The position numbers were made by a program, and so were the translations under genes. DNA of 64,000 nucleotides from Sabellastarte sp. h YS-2021 (Eukaryota > Annelida > Polychaeta > Sabellida > Sabellidae). The stretch spans positions 94,455,432-94,519,431 of the forward strand of contig OZ024933.1 in assembly GCA_964017235.1 (NCBI GenBank), read 5' to 3'. Under the pieces are notes generated by a model. It did no database searches. It was not told where the DNA came from and saw only the letters and a list, made by a program, of their open reading frames with translations. This document shows positions 26,701-62,500 of the stretch, one piece after another; the stretch's first letter is position 1, and each line of letters begins with the position of its first letter.

Positions 26701-29700
26701 ACGTGTTTGTTTGTTTGGTGAACTGAACTGCAGAATAAATCCTGGAGGACAAAACGTAAGAAAAAAATAACTACTAAGACAAAACCCTGGAGCAATTTTC
26801 AGGAGCATGGATATAACCCAGGGGTTGCAACACCAGGGGCCGGAGTCACAAATGGTCTTAGTCAAGTCTCATGCGGGTGTTCTACTATATCCAACCCTAC
26901 AACCGACTCTACAACTCGAGGGTTGGTTAGAAATGTCAGGGGTCAGGGATGAAAATCAAGAAAGAAGTGTGCCAAAAATTTACGTAGAACATCCTAGACG
27001 TAGTACATCCGGAAAATTTTTGTCACTGGAATTTTACACTGGCATCAATAGATTATGTATGTACTAGTACTTGGATGGGTGACCATCTGGGTTCTAGACC
27101 ACATGTAGGATGTATCTGACTCAGACTTTGATTTGGTCACCAGATTTACTCAGTTTTCCACCCTTCTCAGGATCAGTCATAACAGCACCTCTAATATAGA
27201 GTTGGCTAGATTTTATTATAAATCTGGTACATGGAACAGCAGCATTACACTGGTTCAAAGTGACCATGGATTATTGTTGATAATTAGGTTCACTGACCAA
27301 CTTAAAAATATACATTAAATAGTAAACTAGTTACAATGTTGTACCAACCTTTCTGATCCTTTGATTTCAGTTCAGCAATATCTCTCTGCATCTTCATAAT
27401 GACATCCATCAGACTGTCATCTATTGGCAGACCACTCTTGTGTGAACAAAAATAAGGAAATCGAAAATTTGTTCATTTCTGTAGCCTCCACCAAAGAAAA
27501 TATGTGTTTAGTGGTGTTTGCTTGTACGATTGTCTGTTTGCAAGATAACTCTAAAAGTTCTTGAGGAATTTTAATGATATTTTAGAAAAAAAAAACACAT
27601 TGACAATGGCACAGGGAACCGATGATTCAGTTTTGGTGGTCAACTGGATGACTGTTTGGATCCAGAAAGTTTTGAAGGATTTTTCATCATTGCGAGATAG
27701 GGACATTTTCAGAATATGTGTATATGTTACGACCCAAGTGTGAAATTGTCCATTTCGTGAAATGGACAAGGAAATTGTCGATTTCATGAAATGGACAGCC
27801 TCACTGTCCATTTCGTGAAATGGACAAATCCACATATATTTTGCTATCCATTTCATGAAATGGACAAAGTCATGTACGAAAGTTTAACTTTCATTCGTGG
27901 TCAATCTTTTGGTTTAATTTATCACTTTATTCCACTGTAATAATGATGTGTATGTTATATATCTTACATTAAGTTAGTTAATAGTTAAATAGTTATAAAT
28001 ATTTGAAATATATTTGAAATACAAGTGTCAATTATGTAAAGCATACTTTTTAATGGGGATAATTATTTAAAATTACACTTACACTTTTAAAAAGCATATT
28101 GGTACCTGGTATATTATTTTTTAATATTATTTTTTAACATTTGCTTAAAAGAAATTCAATGGAGTTTTGTCTCCTTTGTGCACTAATCTTCTTTAAAAGG
28201 CTTTCCTTTAATGATTAGATCTGAGGAATTGTAGCCTACTCTTTAAAGATTAGATCTAAGGGTTATTAAAAGCAACTGTCAATTTAGAAAGGTTGAAGCC
28301 ATCCCAAAGGTTACAAAAAGAAGTGGGCTAATTACAATTACACCCAACTTACTAGTGGTAGGGCTTTCTTTTAATGAGATCTGAGGATTGTAGACACACA
28401 TTTGAGGATTAGATCTAAGGGTTAATTCAGTGCCTGTCATAAATCTTATGATGATGTGGACAAGCAAATAACAACAGTGATATCAACATTTGTAATTACT
28501 AATGTAAAGAAACTACCAATGTGGCTTAGTGTTAAAAGCTCTTAATGTTGTAAAATATATGTCGCGGTTTAGTCTCACCTAGATTCTATCTCAAATTTTA
28601 AAATTTTTAATAAATGTAAATGCAAATATTAACTAATACTTAACTAATCTTGTGGTTTAATAATATTAGGTTCATGTTAAATTTTATAAGAAAGTGTTAA
28701 AGGAATTATAATAACCTGCACCTCACCAGTAGACTTTAGGTTAAGTATAACCATTGATTTATTCTAATACAATGTTTCAATAAAAAAGCAACAAGTTTTT
28801 TCACTGTGAATGAGAGTAAAAATTTCATACATTTAGTTGTCCATTTCATGAAATGGTCAGTAGATTTTTTGTCCATTTCGCGAAATGGACAAATATTTTG
28901 TCCATTTCACGAAATGGACAGTTGAGTTGTCCATTTCATGAAATGGATAATTTCCTTGTCCATTTCACGAAATGGACAATTTCACATTTGGGTCATAACA
29001 TATATATGTTACAACCCAGGTGTAAAATTGTCCATTTCGTGAAATGGACAAGCAAATTGTCCATTTCATGAAATGGACAACCCAACTGTCAAATTTCGTG
29101 AAATGGACAAAATATTTATCCATTTCGTGAAATGGTTAAAAAATCCACTGTCCATTTCATGAAATGGACAACTAAATGTACGAAATTTTCACTCTCATTC
29201 ATAGTGAAAAAAAATTTTTTTTTTGCATTTTTATTGAAACATAGTATTGGAATACATCAATGGATCAAAGGTTGTACTTTCACCTAAAGTAAACTGGTGA
29301 TGTGCATTGTATTATAATTCCTTAAACATTTTCTTTAACAATATTAGTTAAGTATTTAATATTGGTACATGTATTTACATTTGATAAGAATTTATTAAGA
29401 ATTGGAGATAGCATCTAGGTGGGACTAAGTCACTAAACTGTAAGTCTTTATAACTTTGAGAGCTTTTAACAGGAAGCCACATTGGTAGTTTATTTACATT
29501 ACTTATTGCAAGTGTTATTTACTTGTCCACATTATCACATGATTTATGACTGTGACAGGCACTGTTGCATCGAAGACCTTTCTTTAGACATGAACATCTT
29601 TTTGTCAAGCAGTTGGTACAGCAGTGACATCGGACATATCCTTGGCCTCCACATATACTTAGTTTTCGGACCAGTTCACGAACTGTGTAGTCTTCTGCTG

Positions 29701-32700
29701 GTACATCTTCTGCCTTAAGGCCAGAAAATTTCACAAACTCGATTTGATTCCTTGCTAAGGTACCTCTGATTATGCCAGCTCTGGTCCCAATTGTATAACC
29801 ATTGGGATTTCTTCTCAGAACAACCCCAATAAGATTTGGAGGATCACCTTTGCTCCTGTCAAACTGGGAAACTGGCACAGCAACATTGTCCCCTAGGGCT
29901 AATCCATGGAGTGATCTTGTAGATCGTGCCACCATTTTATCTGCCTGTTTTTGTATATTGCTGTGGGCCTCAGTTCTGGCACGTTTAGCTGGATGTTCTA
30001 TCATGTCATCACCAGTAAGCTCATTCTCCCTCAGGTCTGGCACATCTTCACCTATCTCTATGCCATCTGCAGTTTCAATATTACCACTCTGGGTATGCAT
30101 ATTTCCTTCAGCCACATCTTCAGTCTCGGTAACCGTATTGTCCACAGCCACAACTTCATTGGTCACTGTATCATCAGGGGCAGGATAAGCGTCCTCGCTG
30201 GCACCACTACTGTCCACATCTTGGGGCATACCAATGATTATCATATCATCTGTGGCAGGATCATTAATACTGGCAACACTGCTGGTAACATCCACAGGGA
30301 TATCTTCTGCAGTCTCCAAATTATCAGGAATTATACTGTCAGTATTGGTGTCACTGTTGTCCACCATAGGTACATTCACGTTCGCAATCATATCATCTGT
30401 TGCTGGATTTTCATAATCTGCACTGGCATTTGTACCTGGGTTCAAAAGCTCCTCCAACTGTTCTTCATTCACACCAGTGGTGAATCTAGAAAGAAACTGA
30501 GCTGGTAATGTAGTTTTCAATACACAGCGAGGTTTATTTCCAGTCAGAACCTTGTATGGTTCCATGCGAATGGCCTCATGATATGTGCTGTTCATGGACC
30601 ACTGTACAAACTGACAACCAATGCTCCATGAGGCTGTGTTGTTATCACGCATCCAGCTCTGGAGCTTTAGCTTCAAAGAACCATTGCCCCTCTCAACACT
30701 TCCCTGGCTTTGAGGATGTCTTGGGCAACCATTCACTAAGACACAGTCTGGCCAAAGGCTGGATAGTTCTTGGATTTATCCACACCTCCTAATGTAACCA
30801 ACTTGTAGGTTTTCAAAATATGATAGCTGTCCCTGGAAAGACTTTTTCAGGTGTTCAGGTATATTTATAGTGAAATGACTGGACATAATTGCACTTCGTT
30901 AATTGGACTTTTTGTGAAAAGCTTAACATCTAAAAGACTAAAAATGGCTTTCAAGTGTTGAATGGACAGTTATTTACAATAATCCTCAGAACATACAATT
31001 AAAGGTATGGCTTCAACCTTTTAAATTGACAGTTATGTGAATTAACCCTTAGATCTAATCCTCAAAAGGTAGGCTATAATCCTCAGATCTCACCAAAAGA
31101 AAGCCTCACCACTAGTAAGATGGATTTAATTGTAATTAGCCCATTTCTTTTGGTAACTTTTGGGATGGCTTCAACCTTTTTAAATTGACAGTTACTTTTG
31201 ATAACTCTTAGAACTTATCTTCAAAGTGTAGGCTACAATTTCTCAGATCTAACCATCAAAGGAAAGCCTCACCACTAGTAAGATGGATTTAATTGTAATT
31301 AGCCCATTTCTTTTTGTAACCTTTGGGATGGCTTCAAACTTTTTAAATTGACAGTTACTTTTAATAATTCTTAGAACTTATCTTCAAAGGGTAGGCTACA
31401 ATTTCTCAGATCTTACCATCAAAGGAAAGCCTTTTAAACAGGATTAGTGCACAAAAGAGGCAAAGTTCTGTCATATTTCTCTCAAGCAAAAGTTAAAAAA
31501 TAATATAGCTGATACCAACACATTTTTTTAAAGTATAAGTGTGATAATTATTTAAATAGTTATTCCCATTAAAAGTATGATTTACATAATTGACACTTTT
31601 ATTTCCAATTTATTTCAAATATTTATAACCATTTAACTATTAACTAACTTAGTGTAAAATATTATATATACATATCATTATTATAGGGGAATTAAGTGGA
31701 TAACTTAAATCAAAAGATTGGCCATGAACGAAATTTAACTTTCATACATGACTTTGTCCATTTCATGAAATGGATAGCAAAATATATATATGGATTTGTC
31801 CATTTCACGAAATGGACAGTTGGGTTGTCCATTTCATGAAATGGACAATTTGCTTGTCCATTTCGCGAAATGGACAATTTCACATCTGGGTCATAACATA
31901 TATGTTGGAGCCCAACTTAGGAGTCAGCCCATCTTAAGATGGGCTATAGCCCAACTTAGGATCCTAAGTTGGGTAGCCTATCTTAAGATGGGCTAAGCCC
32001 ATCTTAAGATGGGCTAGAACATACTAGCCCAACTTAGGATAAGTAAACTCAGGAATGATTTTAAAACTAAAATTTAATATTAACCAACAAATGTCACACT
32101 CCGTTGGTGGTTTTAATCATAAAATTGAATATATGCATGGTAGTTTATTTAAATACTTATATTTCAATTATCGAGTATATGTTTGTAAAATATTATTTAA
32201 GATTTGTTGTTCTTATCTCATCTGAAGATTTGGTAACAAATATTAGCCAAACTTATAATTTGCACACATAATTTTTATTTTCACAATTTAAATATTATTT
32301 ACTTATTTTTCTACTTAAATGTTTCTTCTTTTCATTACCTCATTATATATTGATAGGATTAATCTTAATCCCTTTATTGTTCCAAGACTCTGTCTCAGTT
32401 AATTTGATAATGGGAGGGTCATCAGGTCATAAATTGTCTATTGTTCAACCATTGCTTTCAACTTGATATGTTTCACTTGTGTGGAGTGATTAGGCAACTG
32501 GATTACACTGTGATATATCTATTGTTTCAACATTTCTTTTAAGTTGATTTGTTTGACTATGTGTGTGACTTGGTAAATGGATTAGTGTTAGATTTATCTT
32601 TTGTTCTAGCATTCTTTTGAACTTGATTTCTTTCACCTCTGGTTAACTGACTAGCTAACAGAATTAATAAGGCATTGTTTTAAAAGTCCTTTATGGTGTT

Positions 32701-35700
32701 TTGGGGATGATACTTTACAGTTTTGTAAACAAACTGATTAATTTAATGATAATTTTCAAATGTTTAATGTTAAATGCTTACAAGGACATTTACCCAATAT
32801 AGCCAAATAGAATACACCAATTTTTACATGCAATGTGTATTTTACCATTTTTTATCAATTTTATGCATCAGTATGTTGTTTGACTAAATTCATCAAATTA
32901 ACTTGTTTAGATTTAATTGTATTTTCAAATTAATTAATGTAACTGTGCTCCAAAAATAAAGCACTTTATAAATCCTGTTAAAATTTTGTTAATAATATAA
33001 AAAAGTAACTTTATAATTCTTTGTTAAGCTTAAAATATATAATCAGGTTCACCCATAAAATCACCCACTATACTTGGCTTTTCCCCTCATGGGTTTGATA
33101 GAAGAAAGCCTCATTATATTTAGAGATTACTTTGATGTTGATTTGTTTCACTTTATGATTTGGGGTATTCCCTATTGTGTACTTTACCCACCCCAAGTGA
33201 AACAAATCAACATCAATAGAATGTTGAAACAATAGCAACAAATCCTATTAAGAAACCATTGCAATGAAAGACAAATAAAATCTACATCAAAGGAATATTT
33301 TAATGCTTTCAAGGAAACATAATTCATTTTAGTTTCTGCAATTAGATACTTTTTGTTGAAGTTACATAAGTTAAACATATTTATATAAAATAAAAAAGAA
33401 GTATAAAGTACTTCTGTACAAGGGTCAGTTAAGTTTATCAATGTCAATCTCATCTTTTTCATGAAAAAATAATTTCCTTTACATTATATTCCACAAAAAT
33501 CATTCTTGAATTTTATTATCTTAAGTTGGGCTGACATGTTCTAGCCCATCTTAAGATGGGCTAGCCCATCTTAAGATGGGCTACCCAACTTAGGATCCTA
33601 AGTTGGGCTATAGACCATCTTAAGATGGGCTGATTCCTAAGTTGGGCTACAACATATATACCTCTATAGTGAATCGCCATATTGCTTGGACAACAATACA
33701 GGAAACTCCTATGGTAGTGTCTATAATGTACCTTAGTTTTATCAGGATCCTAGTAAAATTACGAATTTTATGATCCAGAACAGGAAAAAGTTTTTTTTAA
33801 TTTTATATATTTTTTATACATATAACCACTCTAATAATAGATTATAATAAAATACAACACAAAAAAGACTGAACGTTATGTAACGGTTGATAGTACACAA
33901 CTCAATGACAGAAAAAAAGCATATATATAGTGTTACATGATAAAAGAAACTAAATAATACATCCAATAAAACATAAAACACACACACAAAAAGGGCGGGG
34001 GGAAGTACAGCAACTCTTTTAGCTGCACCAAGAAAGGATCTACAGATACAATTTAATTTTGCATGTAAAAATACACTGAATGATTCCCCAGTTTCTGATG
34101 AAGTAGATGGCGAAGAACTACTTGGCAGAAGTTTGTAGTCTCCGAGTGTTTTCTAAGTCTTTGAATTTTGATTGGCTGAAGCCAGATAACCTACACTGGT
34201 TGACCCGATTTTATTTATTTGGTGTGTTACATCACGCCTAGTACCTTATTTCTTATATTGTAATGGGCAGTTGAAAGGGCAGAGAAAACCAGTATGTACA
34301 GTTGGTCAAGGTTCTGTACTGTATTTATTTTTTATTTAGTTATTTATTTGGGTTTTAAGGTCACTTTCAACACATTGTATAGGTCATATCACAACGGGTA
34401 GGTTTATGGGCAGAGGAAACCAGCACATACAGTTGGTCAAGGTTCTGTACTGTAAACTGCCAACCATCGGCAAGCAACTACCACCAGCTTTCCCACTTGA
34501 GGTTGTGCCGGGATTCGAACTCCGATCTCAGAGGTGGGAGGTGAGAGTGTTACCACTATGCCACTGTGGCCCCCTGGTTCTGTACTGTAAACAGCAGACC
34601 AAATACAAGCAACTATGAGCTTTCTCACATAATGTTAAGCCAGAATTCAAACTCTGATCTCAGACAAAAGGAGATGAGTGTAATACCACTGCACCACTGT
34701 AGTCCCTGGTATTGACCAGAAAACAGACAGCACAATGGACAAGTATGAAACCATTATGACCCTCCACAATGAAAAAAAGTGACCCGAATGACCCAATTGG
34801 CTAAGTGGTTAACACATTTAGCAATTCATCACCCAGCTTTCAAATCCAGCTCATGCAACATATTGGGCATACTGAGGGACTATCCTGATATATGACACTG
34901 GCTGTTGAAAGATGCTTAAACCCCTCTCAAACTCTTCACACAGGCCCACCATTGCAGTTGTAACTTTAAACACTGAACATCTATGGGTATATTAATATGT
35001 TCCAGGATGTATCAAATATGGATATAGTGCCAGAGGTATATGACCAGAAGAATATTAAGAAACAATAAAATGTCACACAACTTTCTTTCTGTCTGTAGCT
35101 TTATTTGTATTGACATTGTTGCTGAGTGATACTAAATCATTATTTTAATAGATATTCAAATGAAAGTTATATGACTTTTTTTTCAAATATGTATTAAATA
35201 CTTCATATTATGTGATTTTTGCTTGAAATACTAAGATTTTGAGCCTATGACCATATCCATACATGAACTCTTGGCCACATCCCTTGGGATCTGTCCTATG
35301 GCAGTAACTCTGCATACAGCCCTCTCAAACATCCTCCATCGATATCAGATATCGCCAATACTGGTAGACACGATGGTACCACAGAGTAGAAGGAAAGTTA
35401 TCCCTGACTAATTCTTTCAATCTTTAAAAGAAAACTCATTTCTTTTATAATCTGTTTCCTGAAGTTAAACATTGTGAAGAAATTAATTCTGTAAAACAGA
35501 ATAAAGCAATATTTAGCTGATTTGATTTGATTCATTTGTGTTTAACGTCACTTTCAATACATTGTATAGGTTAATTCACGACAGGTAATTTTAAGGGCAG
35601 AGGAAACCAGTACATACTTGTTGGTTAAGATTGTGTGTTGGCTGTCAGGCATCAGGAAGTAGCTACCAACTGTCCAGCATAGGATATACTATTTTACTGC

Positions 35701-48130: not shown

Positions 48131-48173
48131 TTTTTTCTTTGTTATCCATTTTTGAAACAACATAAATATTTTA

Positions 48174-48367
48174 TTTATTTATTTGGGGTTTTACGTCGCT
48201 TTCAACACTGTACAGGTTATATCACGACGGGTAGTTGGAAGGGCAGAGGAAACCAGTACATAGAGTTCGCTAGGGGTGTGTACTGTAAACTGCCAACCAA
48301 CGGCAAGCAACTACCAGCTTTCCCACATGAGGCCTTGACGGGGATCGAACCCCGGCCTCAGAGGTGG
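48174..48367 (-). repeat. SINE family 2 inside the LINE, reverse
   Basis: In the plus reading it starts TTATTTATTTGGGGTTTTAC and ends GGGGATCGAACCCCGGCCTC. The duplicated target CATAAATATTTTA lies at 48,161-48,173 and 48,368-48,380. Confidence 0.88.
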
Positions 48368-59567: not shown

Positions 59568-62500
59568 ATGGTGTACAGAAAGTTATTCTTGAGATGTGTC
59601 ACAATATTCCTGCTCCTGAGCGGAGTTGTGGATATGAGAAGGATGAAAAAATATTCTGAGGTAAGTTACTTTCTCAAGAAATCTAGCTTTCTCAGAAACC
59701 AGGCTGTTCTCAGAAACCACTATGGCCCATTTGTACACCTAAATAACACTTAACAGTCTCTCTTGAACATTTTTACAATAAATACACTTAAATGTACAGA
59801 TATACATATAGGTTTTAGGGAAGAAAAAAATATTTTTATAAATGAAAATCATCAAACATATCTATTTATTTATTATTTCGCAAAGTTTTGCAAAGTACAT
59901 TACTCAGTCTGTTTGCTTGTGTGGCTGTTAGTTTGTTTGCTAGTTTGCAGCATAACTCCAAAACTACTGCATGGATGATTATGAAATTTTAGGGAGCAAT
60001 AGAATTGTTACACAGAAGAACTGATTCAAATTTGGGATGGTTCTGTAGCATGTTTTTTTAGTCACGTTATCATGGTAATCAATGAGATAATTTGAGTTAT
60101 GCTGTAAATTGACAACCAAATAAGCCAATAGACTGAGTAACATACTATGCAAAAATTTTGCAAAGTAATAACTAATAATCAGTAGTGAAAAATATTTTAC
60201 CTTGATATCTACTGGACAGTTGATTTACAAATAGATTATGGTTATCAATAACTTAAAGTGGCTTGCCAAACTAATTTTGTAATCAAGTAAACTGACTTTT
60301 TATTATTTCAAATATGCCTGATACATGTTTTAAGTTTTAACTACACACGAGTCATCAGTTATATGATTTATAATTTCATGTTATGTGGGTTTTATCTTTT
60401 GCAGGGTGAGTTTGAACCTCCTATCCTTTCAGAAAGGCAGAGAGCTTTACTTGAGGAATATGGGCAAGTGAAAAGACAAGCTCCTTATGTTTATGAAGAG
60501 TATGAGCCACTAACTGATGAATGGGCTGCTTATCATGATAGTGGCTGGCATGAACCAGATTGGTCTATGCATGATGATGAAGAAGAAGTTGGACAGATGA
60601 ATGTTGACTCTGAATCTGATGGTTTATACGGGAAATTCGAAGACATACTCACTTTTAGCCTCTTTAACAAAGGATTGCCTAATAGTTTTGATTTTGATGA
60701 TGAGGATCTGCAAGAAAGTTATGAACTGTGGAGAGCCAAATTTCTTAACTCCCAAGAGTCAAATTCTCATGGCGAAACTGACATAAGAGGATATGACACT
60801 GATGTTGAATTTACAGCAGTTTTTGATAGTCAGGGATTTGATACAGGGATTAAAGACACTGGGAAATTTGATGCAGAGGCTGACAGCATTCATGAATTTG
60901 ACACAGTAGATGAAAACATTAGTGAATTTGATACAGTGCATGACAACATTCAGGACCTGGATAGAGTGGATGACAACATTCAGGACCTGGATAGAGTGGA
61001 TGACAACATTCATGACCTGGGCAGAGTGAATGACAACATTCAGGACCTGGATAGAGTGGATGACAACATTCAGGACCTGGATAGAGTGGATGACAACATT
61101 CATGACCTGGATAGAGTGGATGACAACATTCAGGACCTGGATAGAGTGGATGACAACATTCAGGAACTGGATAGAGTGGATGACAACATTGAAGATTTTG
61201 ATACAGTGGATGACAACAAGCACACATTTTATACAGTTAATGACTACATGGAGAAATTCAACGCAGTGGATGGCATCATTCAAAAATTTCTTACAAATAT
61301 TCAGGATTTTAATGCAGTAGATTACAACGCACAGGAAGCTATTATTGTGAGTGACAACACAGTAGAATTTGATAGAATGAATGACAATATTCAGGAATTT
61401 GGTGTAGCAGATAACATTAAAAAAATTGACAGAGTGGATGACAACAATCACAGATTTGATGAAGTCAATTTCAACTTTCAGGATTTTGAGACAGTAGATG
61501 GAAACTCTCACCAATATCCTACAGCGGATAGGAATATTCAGGAACTCCTTACAGTAAAGGAAGTAGATACAAAACCTGACCATATTCAGAAATTTGATAC
61601 AATGGATAACATTATTCAAGAACTTGATACAGTGGATTACAACACACAGGAACTTGATACCAAAGGTGACTACATCCAAAAGTTTCATAAAGTGGATAAC
61701 AACATTAAAGACTTTGATACTACAGTGAATAACACAGAAGATGTTGAAATTGCGATTGACATTCAGGAATTGGATGCACCAGATGACAAGAATGAGGAAT
61801 TGTATACACTGAATGGAAACATTGAGGAATTTGATACAATAGATTACAACACACAGGAAGCTCATGCCGTGGATGAACACATCCAAGAATTTGATACAAA
61901 AGTTGACAGCATTCAGGAATTTGATACAGATGTTGACAACATTCAGGAATATGATACAGTGGGTGACATCATTCAGAAATTTGATACAGTGGATGACACC
62001 ATTCAGGAATATGATACAACAAATGACAATTTTCAGCAATTAGATACAGTGTATGGCACCTTTCAGGAATTTGATACAGTCGATGAAAAAATTCAGAAAT
62101 TGGATACAGTGGGCAACAACATTCAGAAAGTTGGGGTGAATACAGTGAATGGCAACCTCCAGGAATTCAATAAAGTGGATGAAAATATTCAGGAATTTAA
62201 TACAGTGAATGACAGCATTGGGTTTGAAAGTGGTATTGAGGTAAGAAGTATCAATCAAGGATATGGGAAGGAATCTAGCAGACAGTTCCCTGAAGAATTT
62301 GATGTGCAATATTACGCTGATATTAAGTTTGAGAAAGAAGTTGATGCAGACAGCAAAAAAGACACTGGTGATAGATCTCCACAATCTGGTTTGCAGAAAG
62401 TAGTGGTCCTGAAAGAAATATTTGTGTCCAAAACTCACATATTATTTATCCATATCAGAGAATTCGGTTCCAATGTCATGTGGATGTTCACCAATACCAT

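Follow-up and report, generated by a model that had tools for sequence, protein, structure and literature searches.

Some described DNA transposons share features with the chain of elements reported here. Ginger2/Tdd elements have been characterized by TGTNR ends, terminal inverted repeats (TIRs) of ~50-180 bp, 4-bp duplications, an AT-rich target (RTATAY) and a transposase with an H2C2 domain and a DDE core (Bao, Kapitonov and Jurka 2010, PMC2836005). For IS3EU/GingerRoot elements, TA..TA ends and 6-bp duplications are described as the usual features (PMC10045372). End-to-end arrangements have been described as well. SaTar arrays contain intact, non-nested transposons of unrelated families that are joined through short microsatellites, mostly (TA)n (PMC5907723), and tandem arrays of miniature inverted-repeat transposable elements in corals have been ascribed to replication slippage (PMC2872659). 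We analyzed 64,000 nucleotides of the Sabellastarte sp. h YS-2021 genome (C7:94455432-94519431, contig OZ024933.1; "the window" below) in which three palindrome-ended elements, A, B and C, stand end to end. The assembly comprises 1.79 Gb in 647 contigs. Our preferred model, which we hold to be probable, is that A and B belong to one Ginger2-like family and C to a second, and that the chain was built by separate insertions into a site reading GTG(TA)4CC.

The order TATA-A-TATATA-B-TATA-C-TATATA can be read directly in the window. The left target duplication of element A (27725-29000) is a TATA that follows GTG (27721-27724). A TATATA spacer (29001-29006) leads to element B (29007-31898), a single TATA (31899-31902) joins B to element C (31903-33654), and C is followed by another TATATA (33655-33660), the first TATA of which is its duplication. 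A first-pass annotation had placed A, B, C and the joining TATATA and TATA at these positions and had assigned TGTT starts and AACA ends to all three elements. Its coordinates were right base for base, and the ends are present in each element. Ungapped comparison of the first 100 bp of the inverted ends gave identities of 92% for A, 85% for B and 91% for C. Genome-wide, we found 893 A/B-type ends with three or fewer mismatches (443 + 450; 15 for a reversed-pattern control) and 2020 C-type ends (1019 + 1001; control 0). These numbers exclude a chance origin for either type of end.

The two end regions of B pair with complementary parts of element A, within the stretches 29002-29516 and 31038-31902 of B. 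The complementary blocks pair 28124-28376 with 31254-31506, 28779-28915 with 29093-29229, 28485-28554 with 29447-29516, and 27721-27842 with 31781-31902. Thus, A (minus strand, opposite in orientation to B) corresponds to B without its middle, turned round, and it lacks coding sequence. The gene in B lies on the minus strand, where an open stretch of 418 codons (29522-30775) codes for the C-terminal portion of a predicted integrase-like transposase. This stretch starts after both catalytic D residues and contains the catalytic E region (SQGSVERGNG) and a cysteine-rich C-terminus. It produced 53 matches to integrase-like proteins (E values up to 0.001, best 2e-117). Its front part matched the integrase of prototype foamy virus with E values of 1.7e-4 alone and 5e-21 with a 10-sequence profile. 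Pfam and NCBIfam scans of the B fragment in the window returned no families. Relatives match PF17921 (H2C2) and PF00665 (rve), though only the H2C2 match of one relative (P0013) passed the curated cut-off and the rve matches fell below it. The cysteine-rich C-terminus lies at 29522-29650 (minus strand), and two of the five homologues scanned weakly match the tesmin/TSO1-like CXC domain (PF03638), below the cut-off.

Longer copies of B exist elsewhere. A B-type copy on contig C2 (L061:4571-6478) has a 635-codon open frame with a zinc-binding region, the D, D and E residues, and the cysteine-rich C-terminus. The first zinc-finger His position of this frame is a D, and several homologues have H there. 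Another longer copy, C3:77890157-77893475, has both ends with TATA on both sides, as determined by reading its ends. The window copy is internally deleted, and self-comparison of the window revealed a 163-bp unit present twice in tandem inside it (31091-31416, 94% identical). We read A as a non-coding derivative and B as a degraded, transposase-bearing copy of a single Ginger2-like family.

We tabulated target duplications in 30 A copies with 1.5-kb flanks. Of 935 first-look candidates, 40 were scored, and the 30 with the highest scores, among them the window copy, were used. Identical 4-mers were present on both sides of 25 copies, 24 of them TATA and one TATC. Matching 4-mers were missing from copies L004 (TAGA/CAGA), L012 (TCTA/TATG), L009, L019 and L021. 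The last three are near-identical, lie ~10.5 kb apart at C14:95469902-95492142, have the same odd left flank (CAAA) and probably represent a local tandem duplication. The copy with TATC on both sides (L008) establishes that the duplication is 4 bp with TG..CA ends (TGTT..AACA), and it rules out a 2-bp TA duplication with TA..TA ends. All six solo B-type copies for which both ends were fetched had TATA/TATA. Reading outward from the 24 TATA sites of A, the half-sites had R in 48/48 cases, then T in 45/48 and R in 47/48; these sites include the copies L001 and L002, for each of which the right flank is the next element. The A/B target is a palindromic RTR-TATA-YAY motif, longer than plain TATA.

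The flanks of element C show a different pattern. Among the best-scoring 30 of 40 scored C copies (from 2579 candidates), 26 were complete and 22 of these had identical flanking 4-mers. TATA accounted for three of the 22, one being the window copy. The other duplications were varied (TGTA, ATTA, TTAA, GCCA, CGGA, TTTA, TCAC, GTGA and more), and two copies that share flanks (L051 and L053) may represent one event. With only 3/22 duplications reading TATA and the rest varied, we rejected the idea that C is a TATA element. In the copies read, the tabulation of flanking 4-mers, which the first-pass annotation had called for across the genome, bears out TATA for A and B but not for C. Part of the motif is retained in the C flanks, with R as the first base in 40/44 half-sites and T as the second in 38/44. 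No long open frame was noted in C among open reading frames of at least 100 amino acids. Element C belongs to a second family with ends built on a plan similar to those of A/B.

The ends also contain palindromes. In each of the four A and B ends, the palindrome CCATTTCRNGAAATGG (up to three mismatches) is centered 33.5, 62.5, and 91.5 or 92.5 bp from the terminus, a spacing of 29-30 bp. Palindromes farther in vary in position from end to end (131.5; 120.5 and 152.5; 121.5 and 153.5; 133.5). The C palindrome, AGCCCATCTTAAGATGGGCT, differs from that of A/B, and the outermost one is again centered 33.5 bp from both ends. This shared position suggests that related transposases may bind the palindromes.

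Abutting copies recur elsewhere in the genome, in keeping with the earlier proposal that new copies enter at the edge of existing ones. Junctions between two A/B-type elements with exact ends and spacers of 4-12 bp occur at three places (C2:71571096, C4:99237837 and the window), and the spacer is TATATA at each. Allowing up to three mismatches with a 6-bp spacer added a fourth, C3:76375457, where the right end of one A that is cut short upstream lies beside the left end of another (L084) and the spacer again reads TATATA, for a total of four in 1.79 Gb. No A/B-A/B junction with a 4-bp spacer was found with up to three mismatches, the only match being the B-C junction of the window. For spacers of 8 and 10 bp, only exact ends were searched. 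The pattern A/B-NNNN-C, with up to three mismatches, had two exact matches: the window and C4:141679791, which we read. A further match with two mismatches (C18:2298079) was counted as likely from the pattern match alone. One other with two mismatches (C21) and ten with three were set aside as probable chance matches on the same basis. No C-NNNN-C junction was found with up to two mismatches, the single match being the A/B-C junction on C4. The suggestion that neighbors share one TATA describes the A/B-C junctions (two exact and one likely) but none of the A/B-A/B junctions. A near miss of a chain occurs at C11:94045170-94045330 (L070), where two A/B-type ends are separated by TATATATATACATGTATATA (20 bp).

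The target motif offers a possible route to such junctions. Removing each element of the window together with one TATA leaves GTG(TA)4CC, which we take to be the original site. The insertion site of A in the window, GTG-TATA-TAT, is a full motif match. The A/B transposase uses RTR-TATA-YAY and duplicates TATA, and a copy that landed in a TA run keeps a complete target in its flank two bases from its end (RTR-TATA-TA|TGTT). A second copy can enter this retained target without breaking the first, which would leave a 6-bp spacer, and B and C would meet at one TATA, giving the 4-bp spacer. A full target beside an element end requires YAY past the TATA; a 4-bp spacer brings TGT, with G as the second base, into this position, and TATATA brings TAT, a full match. 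Spacers of 6 bp would thus be natural where copies lie in TA runs, without amounting to a rule. We infer the order of insertion events and integration by a transposase acting in trans. The scheme matters because a palindromic target combined with TG..CA ends can preserve a landing site beside a copy that lies in a TA run, and chains can then form with their members unbroken.

The first-pass annotation had suggested a composite that moves as a unit. We considered whether A-TATATA-B, or all of A-B-C, might do so by using the ends of A and B that face outward. In favor of a composite, three loci that differ in their flanks share the arrangement, the orientation and the TATATA spacer, and TATA flanks both outer ends at the C4 locus (ATAATG-TATA ... 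TATA-CATG). The divergence of the two parts argues against it. Between the window and C2, A differs at 10 of 1260 aligned bases (0.8%) and B at 51 of 2176 (2.3%), with the mismatches spread along B (Fisher p = 0.0007 for A versus B). Each part also has nearer relatives among solo copies. In a comparison of 30 A copies, window copy included, the C2 copy of A was 99.7% identical to L003, which lies in a TA repeat with no element end beside it, and 99.2% identical to A of the window. The 3' part of B in the window is 99% identical to solo copies on C3 (positions 1848-2900) and at C7:35.6 Mb (positions 2024-2900), compared with 97% to the C2 copy of B over positions 1848-2245; positions 1-1774 are 97% identical to the C3 copy and 96% to the C2 copy. 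At the C4 locus, A differs by 10% or more from each of the 30 other A copies read, and B is 93% identical to B of the window, within the 91-94% range of solo derivatives. The right element end of the C2 copy of B was not found within the 16.5 kb read. The unequal divergence and closer solo relatives favor separate insertions, albeit from few loci. They displace an A-B composite as the leading interpretation, and we regard movement as a unit as quite improbable.

We also considered an artefact of assembly or segmental duplication. Misjoins can occur in repeats of this kind, and the trio of A copies at C14:95.47-95.49 Mb has the look of a local duplication. The A-TATATA-B junction, however, is found again at C2:71571096 and C4:99237837 in other flanking sequence, its parts have diverged to differing extents, and insertion fits the 4-mers on either side. 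We consider an artefact highly improbable.

Separate insertions into a shared motif leave the frequency of abutting to be explained. We modeled chance abutting with a matrix derived from 23 sites, excluding the two chain copies, and a background of 242 kb. The 893 A/B ends imply an element number (N) of ~440-890. The matrix predicts 0.055-0.226 junctions with a 6-bp spacer (N of 439-893), compared with four observed, or three without the discovery locus; the probability of three or more is 1.6e-4 at N = 600. Sites that match the motif in full number 44 in 244 kb, corresponding to ~3.2e5 in the genome. A model based on this count predicts 0.19 junctions at N = 500 and 0.66 at N = 930, with probabilities of three or more of 0.001 and 0.029. 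Something beyond the motif is needed to account for these junctions, and this excess counts against our preferred model, as do several other observations. The matrix predicts 0.054-0.223 junctions with 4-bp spacers, about the same as for 6 bp, and more with 8-bp (0.12-0.49) and 10-bp (0.23-0.96) spacers. It does so because TATA is present in every flank and a longer run in only some. By itself, the motif leaves the restriction of the junctions found to 6-bp spacers unexplained, though with four events this is weak evidence either way, and the agreement of all four junctions is suggestive at most. In addition, on one side of the junction between B and C the second flank base is C or G rather than T, whichever insertion came first. 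That abutting is commoner than the motif predicts and that all four A/B-A/B spacers are 6 bp remains a modest puzzle.

Copies also appear to cluster over larger distances. Among 100 listed ends of 893 (79 elements), four neighboring A/B pairs lay within 10 kb, compared with 0.15 expected. This figure rests on 100/893 ends, one of the four pairs is the C2 pair itself, and up to two may represent one element or a duplication, which also tempers our interpretation. The abutting excess may belong to this general clustering, with hot regions, local hopping and tethering all candidates, and we infer local clustering rather than dedicated self-targeting. Regional clustering is also seen in the C family, with at least seven or so elements within 0.5 Mb at C1:28133607-28607813 among the 100 C ends listed.

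Dedicated self-targeting would mean that transposase, held on the palindromes arrayed in the ends of a resident copy, captures incoming copies and places them at the flank of that resident. The enrichment of abutting over the motif-only expectation, the 6-bp length of every A/B-A/B spacer found, the outermost palindrome centered 33.5 bp from the end in 6/6 ends of A, B and C, and the two exact A/B-TATA-C junctions between families all fit this idea. The events are few, however, clustering over longer distances seems to occur too, and no C-4bp-C junction was found with up to two mismatches despite the 2020 C ends. We consider dedicated self-targeting unlikely. A related proposal, which we rate as rather unlikely, is that end palindromes serve as landing platforms at which resident-bound transposase would send copies, including those of a second family, beside the ends and so build intact mixed chains with no nesting. 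The preference of these elements for their own flanks, raised in the first-pass annotation, thus survives as an enrichment over the motif-only model, but the few events and the clustering within 10 kb leave the case for preferential self-targeting suggestive only.

The window contains other repeats. A long array of 30-bp repeats occupies 60712-62184. A dispersed repeat with a GGGCAGAGGAAACCAG core occurs at 613-812, 34335-34430 and 48168-48367, in several copies and both orientations.

We compared the elements to the described families. TGTTA at all four A/B ends fits the TGTNR consensus of Ginger2/Tdd. The 4-bp duplication (24/25 TATA in A) and the R/Y bases beside TATA in 48/48 half-sites agree with RTATAY, and the A/B TIRs, 92% and 85% identical over 100 bp and lower farther in, fit the 50-180 bp range. 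The H2C2 domain and DDE core are found in relatives; the front part of the window copy is deleted. By these ends, duplication, target, TIRs and domains, A and B look like Ginger2-like elements. They differ in their longer target (RTR-TATA-YAY), the palindrome arrays in their TIRs, the cysteine-rich C-terminus and the end-to-end chains. The strings "tandem" and "palindrom" are absent from the main text of PMC2836005. Element C has TGTNR ends (TGTTG) and 4-bp duplications but not the RTATAY target, and we did not file it under Ginger2/Tdd because only 3/22 of its duplications are TATA.

Ginger1 elements share TGTNR ends, 4-bp duplications and an integrase-like transposase with the elements described here, according to PMC2836005. 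Their targets are CCGG or CCGT, and we rejected this assignment because the 25 A duplications comprise 24 TATA and one TATC. The contrast with Ginger1 drawn in the first-pass annotation holds; TATA is not novel, since Ginger2/Tdd has been described with RTATAY in the same paper. IS3EU/GingerRoot elements are likewise eukaryotic integrase-like DNA transposons (PMC10045372), and we excluded them because copy L008 fixes TGTT..AACA ends and a 4-bp duplication here.

Among the best 4-20 matches listed per literature search, no title or abstract concerned Ginger2 chains. The available text of PMC8905726 does not contain "ginger", and nothing decisive appears there or in that of PMC10294476. SaTar arrays are similar in that intact elements of mixed families are joined end to end by TA tracts. 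They differ in being plant Mutator-like elements with 10-bp duplications outside the microsatellites, and 19-47% of their copies are linked or fused in guayule, whereas abutting is rare here (PMC5907723). We conclude that A/B and C are new families of a known kind, and that end-to-end arrays joined by TA repeats were already known in plants.

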